Source: Hyphomicrobiales bacterium (GTDB taxonomy: Bacteria > Pseudomonadota > Alphaproteobacteria > Rhizobiales > Kaistiaceae). From it: DNA of 10,456 bases. The number at the start of each line of letters is the position of its first letter. Within the stretch, counting starts at the first letter, position 1. The stretch covers positions 1 to 10,456 of the forward strand of contig JAFKJZ010000454.1 in NCBI GenBank assembly GCA_017305815.1, in the 5' to 3' direction. The notes beneath the pieces were generated by a model. That model was not told the origin of the DNA. It ran no database searches and worked only from the letters and a program-made list of their open reading frames with translations. Positions 1 to 10,456 of the stretch are shown piece after piece. Made by a program: the position numbers and the translations under genes.

Positions 1-411
1 GAGCCCGGCACGCCGGCCGGCTGGCAACGCATCCTCGACAGCCGCGCCCAGCTCCTGGACCTCGGCGCCCACATCGCGGCGCCCTGCGCGCATGAGGCGC
101 CCTGCCCGATCGCGGCGCCCGACTGGTGCCATTTTTCCCGCCGCGTGGCGCGAACGAAGATCCATCTGCGCAGCAAGGGCGCCGTGGTGCCGTTCGAGGA
201 CGAGAAGTTCATCTACCTCGCCGCCACACGCGAGCCGGTCGCGGAGCATCCGGCGCGGGTGCTGGCGCCGCCGCGCGCCGGCAGCGGCAAGGTCAGCTTG
301 AAGCTCTGCCTCGCCTCCGGCGCCGCCGAGACGCGCCTGATCACCAAGCGCGACGGCGACCTGTTCAAGGCGGCGCGCCGGATCGACTGGGGCGACGCGC
401 TCGAGGTTTAG
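1..411 (+). CDS. Rsm22-family (METTL17-like) SAM-dependent methyltransferase, C-terminal 136 residues, 5' end outside window
   Basis: The frame is open from base 1 and ends at TAG 409-411. The visible part begins EPGTPAGWQRI and continues with APCAHEAPCPI, then DWCHFSRRV and FEDEKFIYLA, which are hallmarks of the Rsm22 family: methyltransferase-like proteins tied to assembly of the small ribosomal subunit in mitochondria and bacteria. The SAM-binding fold would lie upstream of the window. Counting from the first visible codon, cysteines stand at 29, 35, 43 and 103, a C-x5-C-x7-C pattern plus a fourth Cys about 60 residues on. In METTL17/Rsm22 proteins four cysteines with about this spacing bind a 4Fe-4S cluster, so the bacterial protein probably does too (inference). 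The stop is followed by 196 non-coding bases before dnaG, so it need not be cotranscribed with dnaG. Methylation activity itself cannot be judged from this part. Confidence 0.85.
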   Translation, partial: EPGTPAGWQRILDSRAQLLDLGAHIAAPCAHEAPCPIAAPDWCHFSRRVARTKIHLRSKGAVVPFEDEKFIYLAATREPVAEHPARVLAPPRAGSGKVSLKLCLASGAAETRLITKRDGDLFKAARRIDWGDALEV

Positions 412-426
412 GGGACGATTTGGTTC

Positions 427-447
427 ACCTCTCCCGCGGGGCGAGGT
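427..447. repeat. Imperfect intergenic hairpin, possibly a degenerate copy of a dispersed palindromic repeat
   Basis: ACCTC and CCC pair with GGG and GAGGT around a 3-base loop, with one mismatch (T432/C442), 16 bases after the Rsm22 stop. No T tract follows, so it is a poor intrinsic terminator. The motif (CCTCTCCC, then GGG and GAGGTCG) resembles palindromes scattered between genes in Hyphomicrobiales genomes. That resemblance is from memory and not tested. Confidence 0.35.
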
Positions 448-551
448 CGATGGCCAGAGGCGTGGCGAGGGTCTGGCAGGGAGGAACCGAGGCACGGTGC
501 CGAAGTGCCATCAAACCGCCCTGCATAGCGGGCATAAGTAGCCTGGAGCCT

Positions 552-580
552 TTGCCCTTCGCGCTGCCACGCCCTAAATT
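552..580 (+). promoter_or_regulatory. Candidate sigma-70 promoter for dnaG
   Basis: TTGCCC (552-557) and TAAATT (575-580) are separated by exactly 17 bases. Transcription would start near 587 and give a leader of about 20 bases before the dnaG ATG at 608. The box matches are moderate (TTG of the -35, 4 of 6 in the -10), but this is the best such pair I see in the 412-607 gap. A weak ribosome-binding site (GGAA, 600-603) lies 4 bases before the ATG. Confidence 0.35.
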
Positions 581-607
581 CAAAGGTCACCATCGTTCCG
601 GAATCCA

Positions 608-2473
608 ATGCGCTTCTCGCCTTCCTTCCTCGATGAAATCCGCGCCCGCCTGCCGATCTGCTCGATCGTCGGGCAGCGTGTGACGTGGGAGGACCGCAAG
701 GGACGCTACCACTGCTTCGGCTGCGGCGAATCAGGCGACCATTTCACCTTCCTGGTGAAGCTCGAGGGCCTCTCCTTCCCCGAAGCGGTCGAGCGACTGG
801 CCGGCGAGGCTGGCCTCTCCATGCCTGCGCGCGACGTCCACGCCGAGGCCGAGGAGCGCAAGCGCGCCTCGCTGCACGAGGTGATGGAGCTCGCCTGCCG
901 CTTCTTCGAGGAGGGGCTGCAATCGCGCGACGGCGCCGGCGCTCGCGGCTACCTGAACGGCCGCGCCCTCGGTCCCGACATCCAGCGCCGCTTCCGCCTC
1001 GGCTATGCGCGGGCGAGCCGCAACGCGCTGAAGGAATTCCTCGCCGCGAAGGGCGTGCCGCACGAAGACATGGTGGCGACCGGCCTGCTGATCTCGGGCG
1101 AGGACATTCCGGTCTCCTATGACCGCTTCCGCGACCGCGTGATGTTCCCGATCACCGATTTTCGCGGCCGCATCGTCGCCTTCGGCGGCCGCGCGCTTTC
1201 CGCCGACGCGCCGGCGAAATACCTGAACTCGCCGGAGACGGTGCTCTTCCACAAGGGCGACCTGCTCTACAACGGCTTCGAGGCGCGCAAGGCGGTCCAG
1301 AACGCCGGCACGATCATCGCCGTCGAGGGCTATGTCGACGTCATCGCCATGGCGACGGCGGGCTTCGGCCATACGGTGGCGCCGCTCGGCACGGCGCTGA
1401 CCGAGCGCCAGCTGGACCTGCTCTGGCGGCTGACGCCGGAACCGATTCTCTGCTTCGACGGCGACAAGGCGGGCCTGCGCGCCGCCTACCGCGCCGCCGA
1501 CCTGGCGCTCGCGGCGCTGAAGCCTGGCAAGACGGTCCGCTTCGCTCTGCTGCCGGAAGGCCAGGACCCTGACGACCTGATCCGCTCGGCCGGCCGCGAG
1601 GCGATGGCGCAGGTGCTCGCCGCGGCGCGGCCGCTGTTCGACATGGTGTGGACGCGCGAGACGGATGGTGGCGGATTCGAGACGCCGGAGCGGCGCGCGG
1701 CGCTCGAGGCGCGGCTGCGCGACATCGCCAAGACCGTCGCCGACGAGAGCATCCGTCATCACTACGAGCAGGCATTTGCCGAGCGGGCGCGCGAATTCTT
1801 CGGCTATGGCCAGAAGGGCGGCAACCGCCAGCAGCGCGGCGGCAATGGCGGCGACCGGCGCAACGGCGCCAACAATCGCGCCGGCGGCGATGGCGCGCGG
1901 AACTTCCGGCAGCCGCCGCCGATCATCTCGGAGAGCCTGAAACGGTCGACAACGCTGTCGGGCCGGGTGCAGCCGCCGCTGCGCGAAGTCGTGCTCGTCA
2001 TGACCATGGCAAACCACCCGGGCCTTGTCCCCGACCTTCTGGATGAATTCGCCCAGATCGAGTTGACGAATCGCGAACTTGACTCCCTTCGCACGCAAAT
2101 CCTAGAGATTGCCGCCGAGGATCCTCATATCGAAAGCGGGGGGTTGCGCGACCGGCTGGTTACCGCGCGCTTCGGCGACTTGCTCGGCAAGCTCGATCTA
2201 CAGATCGAGCGCTGCGGCAACTGGCAGGCAAGGGCGGATGCGTCGGATCGTGACGCAGCGGATGGTTGGATGCAGGCTCTCACCTTGCACAGAAAGGCGC
2301 GAACGTTACATAAGGAACTCAAGGATGCCGAGGCGGCACTAGCCACCGACCCCAGCGACGCCAATTTGGCGCAGATGATCGACATCCAGAACCAGATGGC
2401 AAACAGCGAAGGCACGGAGGCCCTGATTGAGGGCTTCGGATTAAGTTCGGGCAGACGATCCAAGCCGATGTAG
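608..2473 (+). CDS. dnaG: DNA primase DnaG, with an apparent internal loss in the zinc-binding domain
   Basis: Makes the RNA primers for chromosome replication, working with DnaB helicase at the fork. 621 residues. The N-terminus MRFSPSFLDEIRARLPI is the usual alphaproteobacterial start, supporting ATG 608. The TOPRIM catalytic core is intact: VEGYVD with Glu240, CFDGD with Asp284 and Asp286, and DPDD at 320-323. A Gly/Asn/Arg-rich linker (about 395-440) leads to a C-terminal helicase-binding domain (about 455-621). The oddity is the zinc domain (CHC2). Homologs have about 28-30 more residues between the GxRVxW segment and EDRKGRYHCFGC, carrying WACCPFHGEKSPSF. Here Trp27 is followed directly by Glu28, so the first Cys/His ligand pair is absent while HCFGC (Cys36, Cys39) remains. 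The frame is kept. The last ~143 codons also show lower GC at third positions than the rest. rpoD follows after 186 bases. Confidence 0.93.
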   Translation: MRFSPSFLDEIRARLPICSIVGQRVTWEDRKGRYHCFGCGESGDHFTFLVKLEGLSFPEAVERLAGEAGLSMPARDVHAEAEERKRASLHEVMELACRFFEEGLQSRDGAGARGYLNGRALGPDIQRRFRLGYARASRNALKEFLAAKGVPHEDMVATGLLISGEDIPVSYDRFRDRVMFPITDFRGRIVAFGGRALSADAPAKYLNSPETVLFHKGDLLYNGFEARKAVQNAGTIIAVEGYVDVIAMATAGFGHTVAPLGTALTERQLDLLWRLTPEPILCFDGDKAGLRAAYRAADLALAALKPGKTVRFALLPEGQDPDDLIRSAGREAMAQVLAAARPLFDMVWTRETDGGGFETPERRAALEARLRDIAKTVADESIRHHYEQAFAERAREFFGYGQKGGNRQQRGGNGGDRRNGANNRAGGDGARNFRQPPPIISESLKRSTTLSGRVQPPLREVVLVMTMANHPGLVPDLLDEFAQIELTNRELDSLRTQILEIAAEDPHIESGGLRDRLVTARFGDLLGKLDLQIERCGNWQARADASDRDAADGWMQALTLHRKARTLHKELKDAEAALATDPSDANLAQMIDIQNQMANSEGTEALIEGFGLSSGRRSKPM

Positions 2474-2555
2474 GATGATCGGGACGGGATCGACAAGCGG
2501 CGGCGTAAGGTTAAGCGGGCCTTAAGACACGAAGTCTAATTGACGGGCGACCGAC

Positions 2556-2580
2556 GGCGGGAGGAATTCCTCCTGCCGCC
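2556..2580. repeat. Strong hairpin in the rpoD leader
   Basis: GGCGG (2556-2560) pairs with CCGCC (2576-2580). Inside it lies the perfect palindrome GAGGAATTCCTC (2561-2572), with CTG 2573-2575 as a bulge. No T run follows, so it looks more like an mRNA stability, processing or pausing structure than an intrinsic terminator. A DNA-binding site centred on the 12-base palindrome is the alternative. Confidence 0.5.
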
Positions 2581-2637
2581 TCTAGGATTTAACGGTGGTG
2601 AGCGAGCGCGACGGACGAGAACCGTCTGGCGCGAAGC

Positions 2638-2653
2638 CTCCGCCAAGACGGAG
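2638..2653 (+). promoter_or_regulatory. rpoD ribosome-binding site inside a small hairpin
   Basis: The Shine-Dalgarno GGAG (2650-2653) stands 6 bases before ATG 2660 and decides that start. The same bases form the 3' arm of CTCCG(2638-2642)-CCAAGA-CGGAG(2649-2653), a five-pair stem with a six-base loop, so translation initiation could be tuned by melting of this stem. The site is seen directly; the regulatory effect is inference. Confidence 0.45.
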
Positions 2654-2659
2654 AACAGC

Positions 2660-4654
<1,995 letters not shown>

Positions 4655-4682
4655 TCGTCCGGGACCGCTACTGCCTGCTCCC

Positions 4683-4716
4683 AAAGGGCCGCTCGCGAGA
4701 GCGGCCCTTTTGTTTT
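4683..4716 (+). terminator. Rho-independent terminator of rpoD
   Basis: A perfect 12-base-pair stem, AAAGGGCCGCTC with GAGCGGCCCTTT, closes on a GCGA tetraloop (GNRA type). TTGTTTT follows on the + strand. It lies 29 bases after the rpoD stop and ends the dnaG-rpoD transcript. Confidence 0.92.
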
Positions 4717-4728
4717 AGGATCAGGCCC

Positions 4729-5051
4729 ATGAACGTCCGCGCGATCATCGAAAATGCCGGCCTCCCCCGCCGTGGCTTCACGGTGAAGGAGGTCGAGCGC
4801 ATGAGCGAGATCGGCCATCCGACAGCTCGCTCGGCTTCGATCTCGGCCCCAAGGCGCTCGTCTACGCGCATTTCGGCATTCGGGAACTCTGGGTGATCGA
4901 CGCGACCACCAACACGATCCATGTCCACCGCGATCCGGTCGGCGGGCGCTACCGGTCGATCACGCCATGGACGGCCCAGGATGTCGTCATGCCGGCCTTC
5001 GCGCCGGCCGAATTCGCGCTGCGCCTCGCCGATCTCGACCTCGGCGGCTGA
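4729..5051 (+). pseudogene. Uma2-family (PD-(D/E)XK nuclease-like) gene remnant with internal deletion and frame change
   Basis: The frame from ATG 4729 gives a typical Uma2 N-terminus ([16 protein letters not shown]), then becomes meaningless at about 4815 and stops at 4894-4896. A second frame (stop TGA 5049-5051) carries a typical Uma2 C-terminus from about 4821: [27 protein letters not shown], and a tail ending FALRLADLDLGG. The two halves lie side by side in different frames. Intact Uma2 proteins have roughly 180-200 residues; only about 30 plus 77 remain. The lost middle part would carry most of the nuclease-like core, so the gene is presumably dead. A possible ribosome-binding site, AGGA (4717-4720), lies just after the rpoD terminator. 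The role of living Uma2 proteins is unsettled; they are often multicopy and lost or gained readily. Confidence 0.75.
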
Positions 5052-5097
5052 TCGCGCTAAGCCTCGGACCCAGATATCCATCTCAGAGGGTCCATCC

Positions 5098-5391
5098 ATG
5101 TCGTTCCTGAAGAAGCTGTTTGGCGGTGGCGGCGGCGGTTCGAGCCCGGCCGAGGCCAAGGGCGAAGCCACCGAATACAAGGGCTACAACATCCGCCCTG
5201 CCCCCTATTCGGAAGGCGGCCAGTACAAGACGGCCGGCTATATCGAGAAGACGATCGACGGCGTCGAAAAGTCCTACCGCTTCGTCCGCGTCGATTCGCA
5301 CACCAGCCGCGACGCCGCCGCCGATTTCGCCGTGATCAAGGGCAAGCAAATCATCGACGAGCAGGGCGACCGGATCTTCGACGCAAGCTGA
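5098..5391 (+). CDS. HlyU-family small protein
   Basis: 97 residues. It begins MSFLKKLFGGGGGG, a short amphipathic N-terminus plus Gly linker common in this family. It continues with YKGYNIRPAPYSEGGQYKTA, IEKTIDG, YRFVRVDSHTSRDAA and ends KGKQIIDEQGDRIFDAS, which matches the small alphaproteobacterial proteins grouped under the HlyU Pfam family (PF10115). The family is named after a transcriptional activator of haemolysin, but direct evidence of DNA binding in such rhizobial members is scarce, so 'regulator' is only a family label. The start is supported by AGAGGG (5085-5090), 7 bases before the ATG. It stands alone, 46 bases after the Uma2 remnant, and is closed by a strong terminator shared with the opposing gene. 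Confidence 0.85.
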   Translation: MSFLKKLFGGGGGGSSPAEAKGEATEYKGYNIRPAPYSEGGQYKTAGYIEKTIDGVEKSYRFVRVDSHTSRDAAADFAVIKGKQIIDEQGDRIFDAS

Positions 5392-5441
5392 CCCCCTCGC
5401 CTCTCCCGGCGCGCGCCGCAGAGGACTGAGGACGCAGGCAC

Positions 5442-5482
5442 AAAAAAGCCGGCTGCGGTGACGCGGCCGGCTTTTTCGTTTT
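5442..5482. terminator. Bidirectional intrinsic terminator between convergent genes
   Basis: A 15-pair stem with one T-G pair (5443-5457 with 5462-5476) closes on a GTGA tetraloop. Its arms end in A runs on the left and T runs on the right (CTTTTTCGTTTTT). Read on either strand the GC-rich stem is followed by a U tract, so it can end both the HlyU-family gene and the minus-strand gene at 5497-7767. Confidence 0.92.
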
Positions 5483-5496
5483 TGCGGGAAGCGGCG

Positions 5497-7767
5497 CTAC
5501 TGGGCGCAGCTGCCATCCGGCTGGACGGCGCCCTCGGGGCAGTCGCCGCCACGCTGCGGACGCTCGCGGCGCTCGGGCTGGCGCTGCTCCTGCGGCGGCT
5601 CAGGCTGCCCCTGCTGCTCCATCTGCGGCTCGCGCTGACGGCGCGGACGCTCCTGCTGCGGCTCCGGCTGGGGCTGCAGTTCCTCCTGCTGAGGGCGCTG
5701 GCGACGCTGGCGCGGCGCTTCCTCGCCCTGGGCAGGCGCTTCCGGCTCCGCCTGGGGCTCGGCCTGCGGACGCTTGCGGCGCGGCGCCTCCGGCTGGGCC
5801 TCATCCTGCGGACGAGCCTCCGGCTGCGGCTCGGCAGCAGGCTGCTCCTGGCGCGGCTGCGCTTCCTCGGCCGGCTGGGCCGGACGCTTCTTGCGCGGCG
5901 GTTCCGGCTGAGCATCGGGCTCGGGGGCAGAAGGCTGCTCGGCCTTCGGCGCGGCTTCGGGAGCAGGCTTCGCGTCTGGCGCAGGCTTGGGCTCGCGGGC
6001 GGGCTTCGCCTCCGGTGCTGGCTTCGCCTCCGGCGCAGGCTGTTCGGCGGCGGGCGCCTCGACCGCCGGCTTGGCCGGGCGCTCCTTGCGCGGCTGCTCG
6101 GGCTTGGCCGGCTCGTCCTGCGGCGGCTGCGCCGGACGCACGTCCGGCTTGTTTCCGGGCTGCTCGGCGGCAGGCTGCTCGGCAGGCGCCGGCTGCACGT
6201 CGGCCGGCTTTCCGGGACGATCCTTGCGCGGACGCTCGCCCTGCGGCTGTCCGTCGGGCTGCTGACCCGCCTGGTCCGGCGCAGGCTTCTGGTCGGGACC
6301 GCGATCCGGCCGGTTTGGCCGCTCGGGCTGGCCCTGGTCGACCGGCGGCGGATTGCCGTCGGCGGGGACCTGCGGCTCGGGCGGCTGCGGATTGGCCTCG
6401 ACCTTCTTCAGCACCTCGTCGGCCCTGGCGGCGCGCTCCTGGCGAATGCGCTCCTGCTCGGCCTGGCGCTGCTCGGCCGCCTTCTTCGTCGCCGCGTCGA
6501 TTTCGGCGGCGCGGGCGTCGGCTGCCTGGCGCTGCTGCGCGACGAGGTCGGCCTTCTCGGCCTTCAGCTTGTCGATCTCCGCCTGCATGCGGTCCCGCTG
6601 CTGCGGCTGGTCGCGATCGCGGCGCAGGTCGCGCCGCTCGTCGGGGCTGAGCACGGAAAGCAGCGCGGCCGAGACGACGCCGGCGACGGCCGCCTTCGGG
6701 TCGGGCTCGACATACTGGTGGATCAGCGTGCGATCGTCGCGCGGCACGTCGCGGTCGAAGCGGTCCGGACGGCCATCGAAGCGCTGGTCGTCGATACGGG
6801 GACGGAACACGCCGATGCGGCCGCCCTGATCGTCGTCGAAGATATCGCTCTGGTCGTCGACATAGACGACCTCGCGGCCGGGACGATCGCGGCGGCCGAC
6901 AGGCTCGTTGTAATAGCGGCCATCCTCGAATTTCGGCCGGCGCACGTCGCGCGCTTCGCCGAGATAGCGATCGATGTCGCGCACCGGGGCGGCGCGGCGG
7001 CCGATGTCGTCATCGTCGAAATAACGATCGTCGACGAACACCCAGCTCTCGGAGACCGGCGGGTCGTAGCGGCGCGGGGCGCCATACTGGTAGCCCGACC
7101 GGTCGGGCGCGATCGGCGCCCAGCCGACGGCGCCGCCGCCGACGCGGAAGGTCACCCAGGCCGGCGACCAGGTATCGCCCGGCACCCAGTACCAGCCATA
7201 ATCGGGGCTGTAGTCCCAGCGGCCATAGTGATAGGTGGCCCAGCCGAACGGCTCGCTCGACTCCCAGTACCAGCCATAATCGTCGGTCCAGGTCCAGCGG
7301 CCTTCCTGATAGGGACGCCAGCCGGCGCCACGGCGCTTCGGCACGAAGACGTAGCCGTAATCCTCATCCTCGATCCAGCGGCCATAGGGCTGCAGCTGGT
7401 CGAAGAAATAGCCGACGTCGCCCGAGGCGCGACTGGCGCGCGGGCGGCTCGAAACTGGCTGGGCACGCGGACGCGACGGCGCGGCCTGCACCGGCTTCGG
7501 GCGCGGCGCCGGCGGCGTGGCGGCGGGCTGCGCATCCGCGACGCGGACCGGCTCGGCCTCCGCCTGCGTCGCGCCATTCTCGGCCGACTGGTCGTATTCA
7601 TCCATGTCGGTGGTATCGGCGGGAGGCGCGCGCTCGTCGGTCGCCGCGGGCGCCTTGGAGCGCAGTTCCAGCCTGTAGGGAATGTCGACGACGCCGGTCA
7701 CCACGGCGGCCCCCGCGACAACGACGCCGCCGGCCAGAGCGGCACCAACCAGACCCAAGAGTTTCAT
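5497..7767 (-). CDS. Envelope protein with DUF6600-like Trp/Tyr-rich domain, coiled coil and long Pro/Glu/Arg-rich tail
   Basis: 756 residues; no enzymatic function recognised. Residues 3-30 are a hydrophobic segment (signal anchor or signal peptide, no clear cleavage site). After a Pro/Ala-rich spacer comes a Trp/Tyr/Gly-rich domain at about 120-222, with repeated units such as YGRWIEDEDYGYVFVP, WRPYQEGRWTWTDDYGWYW, GWATYHYGRW, GWYWVPG and GWAP, as in DUF6600 proteins. An Asp/Arg-rich part (240-350) and a short hydrophobic stretch (357-374) precede an Ala/Gln/Glu/Lys coiled coil (about 378-457). The remainder is low-complexity Pro/Glu/Lys/Arg with recurring PRK-x-RP units and AKPAPE repeats, ending CPEGAVQPDGSCAQ. 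The only two cysteines are in this last motif (743, 754). ATG 7767 is chosen over GTG 7773 because GGAAGG lies 5 bases before it. Periplasmic or cell-wall-facing location is inferred. Confidence 0.8.
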   Translation of the reverse strand: MKLLGLVGAALAGGVVVAGAAVVTGVVDIPYRLELRSKAPAATDERAPPADTTDMDEYDQSAENGATQAEAEPVRVADAQPAATPPAPRPKPVQAAPSRPRAQPVSSRPRASRASGDVGYFFDQLQPYGRWIEDEDYGYVFVPKRRGAGWRPYQEGRWTWTDDYGWYWESSEPFGWATYHYGRWDYSPDYGWYWVPGDTWSPAWVTFRVGGGAVGWAPIAPDRSGYQYGAPRRYDPPVSESWVFVDDRYFDDDDIGRRAAPVRDIDRYLGEARDVRRPKFEDGRYYNEPVGRRDRPGREVVYVDDQSDIFDDDQGGRIGVFRPRIDDQRFDGRPDRFDRDVPRDDRTLIHQYVEPDPKAAVAGVVSAALLSVLSPDERRDLRRDRDQPQQRDRMQAEIDKLKAEKADLVAQQRQAADARAAEIDAATKKAAEQRQAEQERIRQERAARADEVLKKVEANPQPPEPQVPADGNPPPVDQGQPERPNRPDRGPDQKPAPDQAGQQPDGQPQGERPRKDRPGKPADVQPAPAEQPAAEQPGNKPDVRPAQPPQDEPAKPEQPRKERPAKPAVEAPAAEQPAPEAKPAPEAKPAREPKPAPDAKPAPEAAPKAEQPSAPEPDAQPEPPRKKRPAQPAEEAQPRQEQPAAEPQPEARPQDEAQPEAPRRKRPQAEPQAEPEAPAQGEEAPRQRRQRPQQEELQPQPEPQQERPRRQREPQMEQQGQPEPPQEQRQPERRERPQRGGDCPEGAVQPDGSCAQ

Positions 7768-8087
7768 AGTCACCTTCCCGTCGTTTCCGGACCTCGCGGC
7801 CGGTCGTACCGAATCACGTCCAAGCGCCGACCTCGGTCAGCAGGGCCATTTCCCCGATTTCACCCGGCGAAAACGGCATGGGCGAGGCTCAATCAAGGCC
7901 ATTTCAACGGCCGAAGCGCCTCAATTGTCGCTTCCTCAATCGCTCGCCGCGCCTGAACGTTCCCTGAATGCCGCACCACCGGCGATTGGCGGCGAGGCGC
8001 GGAGGTGCCATCCTGCGCGGCGGCGGAACGACGGGAGAGACGGGACGAATGGCATCAGGGGATCGGGCTTTGAGCAAGGGGTCGGCG
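7768..8087. other. Divergent intergenic region without a recognised gene
   Basis: About 320 bases between the divergent starts of the DUF6600-like gene and the hydrolase gene, so both promoters should lie here. I found no convincing -35/-10 pair on either strand. GGCCATTTC occurs twice in direct orientation (7844-7852 and 7897-7905), the second forming a GGCC/GGCC dyad; significance is doubtful. The end may be coding if the hydrolase begins at ATG 8049. Confidence 0.5.
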
Positions 8088-8996
8088 ATGGCCGGAGCGC
8101 GGGCGCTGGCGCTGCTGGCCACGCTGCTGCTACCGGCCGCCCTGCCCGCCCCGGCGCTTGCCGACGGGCTGCGACTCGCCCCCTACAAGGACGAGCTGTT
8201 CCAGTACGGCAAGGTGCTGGAGAGCGCATCGAACGGCGACTTCCGCATCGTCGACTATGACGAGCTGCGCGACATCAACGGGCGCGACGAGATCCCGGAG
8301 CGCAAGGCGCAGGGCAAGTACGTCTCGCTCAAGACCAAGCGGGTCGAGGACCACCTGACCTACAAGGTCGGCGGCCGCAGCCTCAAATATGTCGGCGCCG
8401 GCGCCACCAGGGGCCCGGCCCGCATGATCGTCATCTACCTGCATGGCCAGAACGGCACCCGCTTCCAGGGCGCCGACGACTGGACCTTCGGCGGCAATTT
8501 CAATCGCGTGAAGAACATGACTGTCGCCGCCGGCGGCGCCTATCTCTCGCCCGATTTCTCGGATTTCGAAGCGAACGGCACGGCGGAGATAAAGGCGCTG
8601 ATGCTGGACTACGCGGCCCGCTCGCCGGGCGCGCCGATCTTCGTCGCCTGCGGCTCCTATGGCGGCAAGCTGTGCTGGTCTCTGGCGCGCGATCCGGAAG
8701 CGGCGTCGATGATCTCCGGCCTGATCCTGCTCGGCTCGCTCAATGATCCCGGCTTCCTGAAGACGGCGGCGATGAAGAAGGGCGGCCGCCCGATCCCGAT
8801 CTTTCTCGGCCATGGCAGCCGCGACCCGATCATCGACTGGAAGACGCAGCAGGCGTTCTTCGACAGTGTCCGGAAGAAGTCACCCGGCTATCCGATCAAG
8901 TTCGTGCTGTTCCAGGACGGCAACCACGGCACGCCGATCCGCATGACCGACTGGCGCGAGACGCTGAACTGGATGCTGGCGACGGACGGGAAGTAG
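8088..8996 (+). CDS. Secreted alpha/beta-hydrolase-fold protein
   Basis: 302 residues from ATG 8088, which has AAGGGG 6 bases upstream and gives a compact signal peptide (hydrophobic 6-20, likely cleaved after PAPALA at 25). ATG 8049 would add 13 residues and is possible. The mature protein shows an alpha/beta-hydrolase layout: strand plus oxyanion loop MIVIYLHGQNG (113-123), nucleophile elbow FVACGSYGG with Ser190, acid loop FLGHGSRDPIIDW with Asp246, and FQDGNHGTP with His280. The elbow is C-G-S-Y-G, so Cys replaces the first Gly of the usual GxSxG, which some hydrolases allow. Spacing and order fit a working Ser-Asp-His triad, so an esterase, lipase or peptidase in the periplasm or outside is likely; the substrate cannot be told. 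It appears to be a single-gene unit. Confidence 0.82.
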   Translation: MAGARALALLATLLLPAALPAPALADGLRLAPYKDELFQYGKVLESASNGDFRIVDYDELRDINGRDEIPERKAQGKYVSLKTKRVEDHLTYKVGGRSLKYVGAGATRGPARMIVIYLHGQNGTRFQGADDWTFGGNFNRVKNMTVAAGGAYLSPDFSDFEANGTAEIKALMLDYAARSPGAPIFVACGSYGGKLCWSLARDPEAASMISGLILLGSLNDPGFLKTAAMKKGGRPIPIFLGHGSRDPIIDWKTQQAFFDSVRKKSPGYPIKFVLFQDGNHGTPIRMTDWRETLNWMLATDGK

Positions 8997-9050
8997 GGCC
9001 TTCCCGCACCAGCGCGGGCTGTAGAGCCTAGCCCCGTCGCACAGGCTCGA

Positions 9051-9166
9051 CCATCATCCTGCCCGGCAGAGCCGGGCCTCGAAGGAGGGGCCAGAAGGGC
9101 AAGACTCGAGCGTCCTCCGGATCCTCCTTCGAGGCTTCGCTTACGCGAAGCACCTCAGGATGATGG
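9051..9166. repeat. Compound palindromic intergenic element
   Basis: An 11-base outer inverted repeat, CCATCATCCTG (9051-9061) with CAGGATGATGG (9156-9166), encloses a 12-base inner one, CCTCGAAGGAGG (9077-9088) with CCTCCTTCGAGG (9123-9134). Each side carries its own hairpin: CCCGGC-AGA-GCCGGG (9062-9076) and GCTTCGC-TTAC-GCGAAGC (9134-9151). The right half can alternatively fold on itself (ATCCT, GAGG and CTTCGC with GCGAAG, CCTC and AGGAT). It lies between convergent genes and resembles dispersed REP-like palindromes of Hyphomicrobiales (from memory). No coding potential. Confidence 0.75.
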
Positions 9167-9193
9167 CGGAGGAACATCCGGGCGACGGAGCCG

Positions 9194-9230
9194 GGGAAGA
9201 CGCGATCGCCTAGCCGGCGATCGCTTTCCC
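9194..9230 (-). terminator. Hairpin directly after the zinc metallopeptidase stop
   Basis: GCGATCGCC (9202-9210) and GGCGATCGC (9216-9224) form a perfect 9-pair stem with loop TAGCC. It is extended through a small internal loop by GGGAA/TTCCC (9194-9198 with 9226-9230). It begins one base after the minus-strand stop codon. Only a short pyrimidine tract follows on that strand, so termination may be weak or need Rho. Confidence 0.45.
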
Positions 9231-9231
9231 G

Positions 9232-10164
9232 TCAGATATTACCCTGGAACGTGTTGCACTGGTTGAGGTCGCCGGACTGGTAGCCACGCTTGAACCAGGC
9301 GCTGCGCTGCGCCGAGGTGCCATGCGTGAAGCTCTCGGGCACGACGACGCCCTGGGTGCGCTTCTGGATGGCGTCGTCGCCGATCTGGGTCGCGGCGTTC
9401 AACGCCTCGTCGATGTCGCCGGCCTCCAGCATGCCTTTCTGGTCGGTGCGGTTTGCCCAGACGCCGGCATAGCAATCCGCCTGCAGCTCGACCTTGACGG
9501 ACAGCGCGTTGGCGTCCGCGCGGCTCATGTTCTGCCGCATCTGGTTGAACTTCGGCAGGATGCCCTGAAGATCCTGGACGTGGTGGCCAACCTCGTGGGC
9601 GATCACGTAGGCCTGGGCGAAGTCGCCGGGCGCGCCGAAGCGACGTTTCAGCTCGTCATAGAAGGCGAGGTCGATATAGACCTTCTTGTCGAGTGGACAA
9701 TAGAAAGGGCCGGAAGCGGCGCTGGCCTGGCCGCAGGCCGAGCGCGTCATGCCCGAGAAGAGCACCAGCGGCGTCGGCTCGTAGGTCTCGCCGGCCGATT
9801 TGAAGATGTCGGTCCAGACGTCCTCCGTGCTGCCGAGCACCTTGGAGACGAAGGCCCTGCCGGCGTCCTCGCTGCCGGAGCCGGTGCGGCTCGGCGTCGG
9901 CGCCTGCTGGTAGCTGGTGTCCTGCGTGTAACTGCCGCCGCCTCCGCTGCCTGTCACCATGATGAGCATCTGGATCGGGTTGATGCCGAAAACCAGCCAG
10001 CCGATGCCGACGATCAGGGCGATCGTCACCAGCGATCCGCCGCGCAGCGGGATGCCGCGTCCGCCGCCCATCCCGGCCGGGCGATAGCCTCCGTCCAGCC
10101 CGCCGGATCCGTCGCTGCGCCGATCTTCGACGTTCTCGCTTTCGCGCTGTCCATCGAGACGCAT
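9232..10164 (-). CDS. ypfJ: Neutral zinc metallopeptidase, YpfJ family
   Basis: 310 residues. A Gly/Arg-rich N-terminus (1-43) leads to one membrane segment (about 44-71), then a Ser/Gly/Gln linker and the peptidase-like domain, presumably periplasmic. The zinc site is HEVGHHVQ (His190, Glu191, His194), with the downstream conserved ELQADCYAG (Glu227 to Gly234) likely giving the third ligand or its support. FTHGTSAQR (279-287) is another family signature. Cysteines at 144, 156, 231 and 303 could form disulfides. ATG 10164 is chosen over an upstream start at 10206 because GGGAG lies 7 bases before it and MRLDGQRESENVEDRR matches family N-termini. The family (PF04228) is widespread in Gram-negative bacteria, but its physiological substrate is not well established. 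It diverges from carB. Confidence 0.9.
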   Translation of the reverse strand: MRLDGQRESENVEDRRSDGSGGLDGGYRPAGMGGGRGIPLRGGSLVTIALIVGIGWLVFGINPIQMLIMVTGSGGGGSYTQDTSYQQAPTPSRTGSGSEDAGRAFVSKVLGSTEDVWTDIFKSAGETYEPTPLVLFSGMTRSACGQASAASGPFYCPLDKKVYIDLAFYDELKRRFGAPGDFAQAYVIAHEVGHHVQDLQGILPKFNQMRQNMSRADANALSVKVELQADCYAGVWANRTDQKGMLEAGDIDEALNAATQIGDDAIQKRTQGVVVPESFTHGTSAQRSAWFKRGYQSGDLNQCNTFQGNI

Positions 10165-10396
10165 GGACAATCTCCCTCTTGTCGCGGACGCCGCCGCGCG
10201 TTGCATGCTGCCGAAACTAGACCCGCCAGCGCGCCGCCGCCAGTGGAACCAACGCGAGCGCGGCCCATACAGTTGCCTGCAGGGGTTCCCCCATCCGGCC
10301 TTTTCCCCTATAAGGCCGCTCTAGCCTATACACGCCCCCTGCTCGATGGCCCGCGCGCACTCCCGCGTCGGGTCTTTTGCTACGCGCGAGACGAAA
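10165..10396. promoter_or_regulatory. Divergent intergenic region upstream of carB
   Basis: No gene seen. GGCCTT (10297-10302) and AAGGCC (10312-10317) form a dyad around TATAAG, and TATACA (10327-10332) is a second -10-like box; neither has a good -35 at the right distance. Both would suit carB transcription. The peptidase promoter should also lie here, but I cannot locate it. Confidence 0.35.
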
Positions 10397-10456
10397 TTGC
10401 CGAAACGTACAGATATCCAATCGATCCTGATCATCGGAGCTGGCCCGATCATTATC
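10397..10456 (+). CDS. carB: Carbamoyl-phosphate synthase large subunit, first 20 codons
   Basis: CarB makes carbamoyl phosphate from bicarbonate, ATP and ammonia supplied by CarA, feeding pyrimidine and arginine synthesis. The visible N-terminus is (M)PKRTDIQSILIIGAGPIII, the canonical start of CarB with the first ATP-grasp/Rossmann-like strand and its IGAGP loop; the rest runs off the window. The start matching the family is TTG 10397. An in-frame ATG at 10346 would add 17 residues (MARAHSRVGSFATRETK) that do not belong to the family N-terminus and has no ribosome-binding site. Even for TTG only a weak GAG (10388-10390) is present. Confidence 0.9.
   Translation, partial: MPKRTDIQSILIIGAGPIII

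Follow-up and report, generated by a model that had tools for sequence, protein, structure and literature searches.

The window, a stretch of 10,456 nt that makes up one whole contig (C399) of assembly G000, carries the primase gene dnaG, the sigma-70 factor gene rpoD and a Uma2 gene that lies in two frames (Table 1). At 5497-7773 it also encodes a protein of 758 aa that combines a DUF6600 domain with a long tail in which Pro, Glu, Gln and Arg abound, and it is in this stretch that small indels relative to the relatives concentrate. Around dnaG the window is collinear with seven relatives, and this is therefore the ordinary place of the gene.

Table 1 Features of the window and sites of further sequence loss in two other contigs (C400 and C505) of the same assembly
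Feature	Position	Strand	Description
Whole contig C399 of G000	1..10456		Longer than its rank in the size-ordered list predicts; interpreted as a scaffold stitched together without N
dnaG	608..2473	+	621 codons in the assembled form, with no other part missing (DNAG_N, TOPRIM, C-terminal part); TIGR01391
Codon 18, TGC (Cys)	659..661	+	Ser in 13/13 congeners
Joint	688..691	+	84 nt of the relatives absent, equal to 28 codons, among them those for the CPFH zinc ligands; DNA and protein alignment
Second half of CHC2 finger, YHCFGC pair	689..829	+	Profile positions 50-95 of 98
Sigma-70 factor rpoD	2660-4654		3' of dnaG
Uma2 gene, two frames	4729..5051	+	4729-4815 and 4818-5051, with 259 nt absent between them
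84-nt loss	C400 5775/5778		Close to the end of a cytochrome b-like gene (L121:5006-5791); same length as the dnaG loss
115-nt loss	C505 7103/7104		secF split into two frames
82-nt loss	C505 7792-7796		secD split into two frames

As assembled, DnaG (621 aa) passes the whole-protein model TIGR01391 at 354.6 bits against a cut-off of 283.6 (profile 51-412 of 414), and the Pfam domains DNAG_N (1-127 of 128) and Toprim_2 (3-88 of 88) are both complete. The CHC2 finger (PF01807) is covered over profile positions 50-95 of 98 only. Here GQRVTW runs directly into EDRKGRYHCFGCG, the protein reading MRFSPSFLDEIRARLPICSIVGQRVTW up to the joint and EDRKGRYHCFGCGESGDHF beyond it. The loss measures 84 nt against each of the seven congeners compared (G005, G004, G013, G010, G007, G001 and G003) and falls after codon 27, at 688/691, where a shared GA leaves the precise cut uncertain. 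In the alignment with G005, at 95% overall identity, the sole large gap is one of 28 residues right after Trp27. Instead of the four ligands of a CHC2 finger (C, H, C, C), the assembled protein retains the CxxC pair alone. A preliminary description made from the DNA had proposed an in-frame loss of the CPFH segment after Trp27, homologs some 28-30 residues longer at this point, a single remaining ligand pair and an intact TOPRIM and C-terminal part; all of this is borne out, with the difference now placed at 28 residues.

The missing segment is a constant feature of the relatives. CPFHGEKSPSF is found in all 13 congeners, whose DnaGs (71-94% identical to that of the window) each match the window protein as two pieces flanking the joint, with the extra residues between them. 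In the family survey, which counts the window's genome among its 28, PF01807 finds a match in 27, G021 being the exception. The match starts at profile position 2-5 in 26 of these 27 genomes, and at 50 in the window's genome alone. Among the 26 other family genomes that match, 13 of them congeners, the short form is thus seen in none. More widely, 80 alphaproteobacterial DnaG loci (L030-L109), which are the best 80 of 590 confirmed matches and not a random sample, all have a segment of 23 or 28 residues where the window has 0. Segment loss therefore occurs in none of 93 relatives (13 congeners plus the best 80 of 590 wider loci). The nearest named DnaG among the best 80 of 590, a set that may omit records very close to the window, is that of Prosthecomicrobium pneumaticum at 65%. 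In protein and domain order the window's DnaG resembles the TIGR01391/PF01807 primase with its CHC2 zinc ribbon, at 94-95% identity to its nearest congener; it differs in that the assembled sequence is without 28 residues that include the first ligand pair (CPFH). On these alignments, the short form is specific to assembly G000 among the genomes compared.

According to a review (PMC6163395), three cysteines and one histidine hold the zinc, and the domain mediates recognition of the template sequence. Loss of two ligands together with their surroundings should disable that recognition. The ligands themselves prove less constant than the segment. Three or four of the four are replaced in 58 of 80 alphaproteobacterial DnaGs (best 80 of 590), with the segment kept, and CHCC is retained in 22 of the same best 80 of 590 as well as in all 13 congeners. 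In the 58 proteins (again from the best 80 of 590), the first pair has become S with N, Q, T, S or G and the second C or D with S, A or T; examples include Bradyrhizobium (L045), Methylobacterium (L081), Microvirga (L062) and Caulobacterales (L105). Motif counts (12/80 and 22/80, best 80 of 590) could be taken to mean that fingers are missing in the wider loci, a reading that we rejected on direct reading of eight loci, where the ligands are replaced. To judge from these residues, the alphaproteobacterial primases examined have often lost zinc ligands while keeping the domain. Among the literature matches listed, none announces a zinc-less alphaproteobacterial DnaG in its title or the start of its abstract, although such a report may exist. 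The replaced-ligand proteins (SPFN...CFSS, SPFQ...DFSS and similar) share with the window's DnaG an incomplete CHCC set; unlike it, they keep the segment (23 residues by alignment) and have the ligand residues alone changed. The preliminary view that a DnaG without its four ligands is anomalous has to be corrected with regard to the ligands; the segment itself is lacking in 0 of the 80 (best of 590).

The 58 of 80 primases (best of 590) that do without three or four ligands, which make zinc itself seem dispensable in the class, lend some plausibility to a biological reading, in which a true in-frame deletion is fixed in the strain and a half-finger primase works without the first ligand pair, template recognition falling perhaps to the RNA polymerase domain or to a finger in trans. 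The reading frame is kept across the loss, and the rest of DnaG is complete and conserved. Moreover, Cys18, the single replacement relative to G005 within the 27 codons upstream of the joint, is unique to the window (0/13 congeners and 0/80 wider loci, best 80 of 590) and could in principle be a new ligand; it may be natural or an error close to a contig end. However, all 93 relatives (80 of them the best of 590) have a segment of 23 or 28 residues, and the sheet of the zinc ribbon should lose strands without it. The other half of the finger would be expected to drift, yet over the 48 codons from the joint onward there are 13 synonymous differences from G005 and one replacement, compared with 64 synonymous and 10 replacement differences over 300 codons. 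By these counts, ordinary purifying selection holds what is left of the finger as tightly as the rest of dnaG. Continued selection on a whole finger would give such a ratio, and the constraint is in keeping with a finger that is intact in the living cell. We regard a genuine half-finger primase as very unlikely. The organism it would describe, a free-living alphaproteobacterium with a working primase from which the first zinc-ribbon half has been excised in frame, with Cys18 and the CxxC pair possibly making up a reduced metal site, is just as hard to credit. If real, it would mean an essential enzyme working with half its template-recognition domain.

Alternatively, the short copy may be a real variant or a pseudo-copy, with an intact dnaG elsewhere in the genome. 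At 92% completeness the assembly could be missing a second gene, and four congeners do have a further PF01807 match, strong in G010 (107.6 bits) and weak in G002, G006 and G009 (29-31 bits). Nevertheless, a search of G000, 92.07% complete, returns one match to the window's DnaG protein and one to PF01807, and a relative's DNA across the joint matches the window only, with no stray copy of the segment elsewhere in the assembly. Searched with the whole DnaG, every one of the 13 congeners gives a single strong match, and the further PF01807 matches are also recovered with the window's DnaG in G006 and G010 only, weakly and at 34% identity. The ordinary genomic setting of the window's dnaG counts against a displaced copy as well. 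A second dnaG, the third of the explanations offered in the preliminary description, was not found in this 92% complete assembly, and we consider it extremely unlikely. The second CHC2 finger of G010 (L029; C1:5221516-5221746, 107.6 bits) lies in a 959-aa frame unlike the DnaG of that genome.

The dnaG loss does not stand alone. An internal deletion had also been suspected in the Uma2 gene, and here 259 nt are indeed absent at 4815/4818 relative to G005, G004, G013 and G010. In G005 the gene is a single open frame of 199 codons; in the window the loss shifts the frame. Pfam PF05685 (Uma2) matches the right-hand piece (4818-5048) at 33.6 bits against a cut-off of 27, compared with 88.4 bits for the intact G005 gene, and gives no match in the 29-aa left piece. 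We counted a loss as clean when at least 30 nt were absent relative to all of G005, G004 and G013 and the two flanking matches overlapped, or stood apart, by no more than 5 nt of the contig. Five such losses, of 82-259 nt, were found in G000: 84 and 259 nt in the window, 84 nt in C400, and 115 and 82 nt in C505, each identical in length against all three relatives. Besides that in dnaG, there are thus four more across three contigs, the window included, in genes open in relatives; for the cytochrome b-like gene of C400, the continuation in relatives was judged by eye only, and the best NCBIfam match of its ORF is under the cut-off of that model. Repeats of about 130 nt lie at L121:4680-4883 and 12478-12612, and occur at many places in G004, G005 and G013.

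Of the five clean losses, three disrupt the reading frame of a gene that is uninterrupted in G005, namely Uma2, secD and secF. The two sec genes are each broken once (L242:6436-8800), and the pieces match SecD, SecF and SecDF models. For secD, two parts of the G005 frame are found in different frames of C505, at 97 and 99%, and residues 178-203 of the compared piece are missing; for secF, identity to G005 is 94% on either side of the 115-nt loss, in different frames. That two neighbouring genes, secD and secF, should both have a broken frame is difficult to credit as biology, whereas stitching accounts for it readily. Four losses comparable to that in dnaG, of which three break a frame, suggest one technical cause for all and argue against a half-finger primase.

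A technical cause is also suggested by the order of the contigs. G000 comprises 719 contigs (92.07% complete, 5.28% contaminated), whose numbers track falling size from C501 and then on from C1: C501 has 7,197 nt, C701 4,388, C4 4,086, C201 2,464 and C398 1,610. Scattered through this otherwise size-sorted list are over-long contigs. For example, C398 (1,610 nt) and C402 (1,596 nt) enclose the window at 10,456 nt, C400 at 16,440 and C401 at 9,811. Of 81 contigs sampled, including the window, 22 are N throughout and 59 readable; a running-minimum rule applied over the whole contig order classes 27 of these as over-long and 32 as in order (among the latter C601, which is nonetheless longer than its neighbour C602, at 6,342 versus 5,652 nt). 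Runs of N, 10-67 nt in length, occur in 7 of the 27 over-long contigs and in none of the 32 in-order ones (Fisher p = 0.0026). A rule treating short blocks separately (N in 6/23 versus 1/36, p = 0.011) was rejected; it classed the window, C401 and C1 as in order and C398 as over-long. The window itself is without N, and it is its out-of-order size that indirectly marks it as a probable join of smaller pieces.

All five clean losses found lie in over-long contigs, as do the N gaps of every sampled contig that has any; the in-order contigs examined have neither. Among contigs with long alignments, clean losses occur in three of six over-long contigs (none in C401, C408 or the aligned part of C503) versus none of eight in-order contigs (C4, C8, C15, C25, C102, C601, C501 and C502; p = 0.055), a comparison made with G005 only for the first six of these eight, and in which gaps inside a match are invisible for C501 (aligned over 4.6 of 7.2 kb), C502, C401 and C408. 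Smaller differences from G005 do exist in in-order contigs, with gaps of 19, 11 and 14 nt near each other in C4 and one of 25 nt in C601, all under the 30-nt limit. C502 is without about 534 nt present in G005 and G004, not in G013, and has 109 nt of its own sequence there; being neither clean nor common to all three relatives, this difference was not counted. Sites at which C400, C401, C408, C505 or the window carries over 5 nt of own sequence between matches were likewise left out of the count. C7, C16, C24, C108 and C109, with short matches only (67-75% identity) to 1.07 Mb of G005, were left unjudged; apart from C400, C408, C501, C502 and C505, each searched singly, the other readable contigs gave no match of at least 200 nt in that 1.07 Mb.

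In our view, the over-long contigs are probably scaffolds built from short seeds, and G000 would be a metagenome bin in which joining may have proceeded as follows. Short contigs would have been linked by read pairs, and the gap between two contig ends wrongly closed, the ends being butted together and the intervening stretch dropped. In dnaG, the dropped stretch would by chance have been a multiple of three, leaving an open frame that resembles a short protein. That the frame is kept does count against an assembly error, the chance being one in three. The preliminary description had further suggested that similar codons on both sides may have aided a deletion. This aid appears weak: GA alone is shared at the cut relative to the relatives, CGCAAG stands a few bases on in both flanks in six of seven relatives, and no direct repeat spans the loss at both cut sites in the relatives' stretches L015 and L016.

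Local assembly errors that give incorrect protein genes are known for metagenome-assembled genomes, as PMC7111523 describes. The present case resembles the errors treated there in that wrong sequence leads to wrong protein-coding genes, with N-filled gaps in the same assembly; it differs in being judged from the assembled sequence alone, and not from read support at the joint. Of the three explanations originally put forward, it is the assembly deletion that contig order and the five losses favor, at the expense of a half-finger lineage and of a second dnaG. We conclude that the missing 84 nt of dnaG are very probably a local assembly error at a contig join. Clean in-frame losses at such joins can pass for protein evolution in draft genomes. 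As for the organism itself, it most likely has an ordinary CHCC zinc-finger DnaG, with the usual template recognition and primer start.
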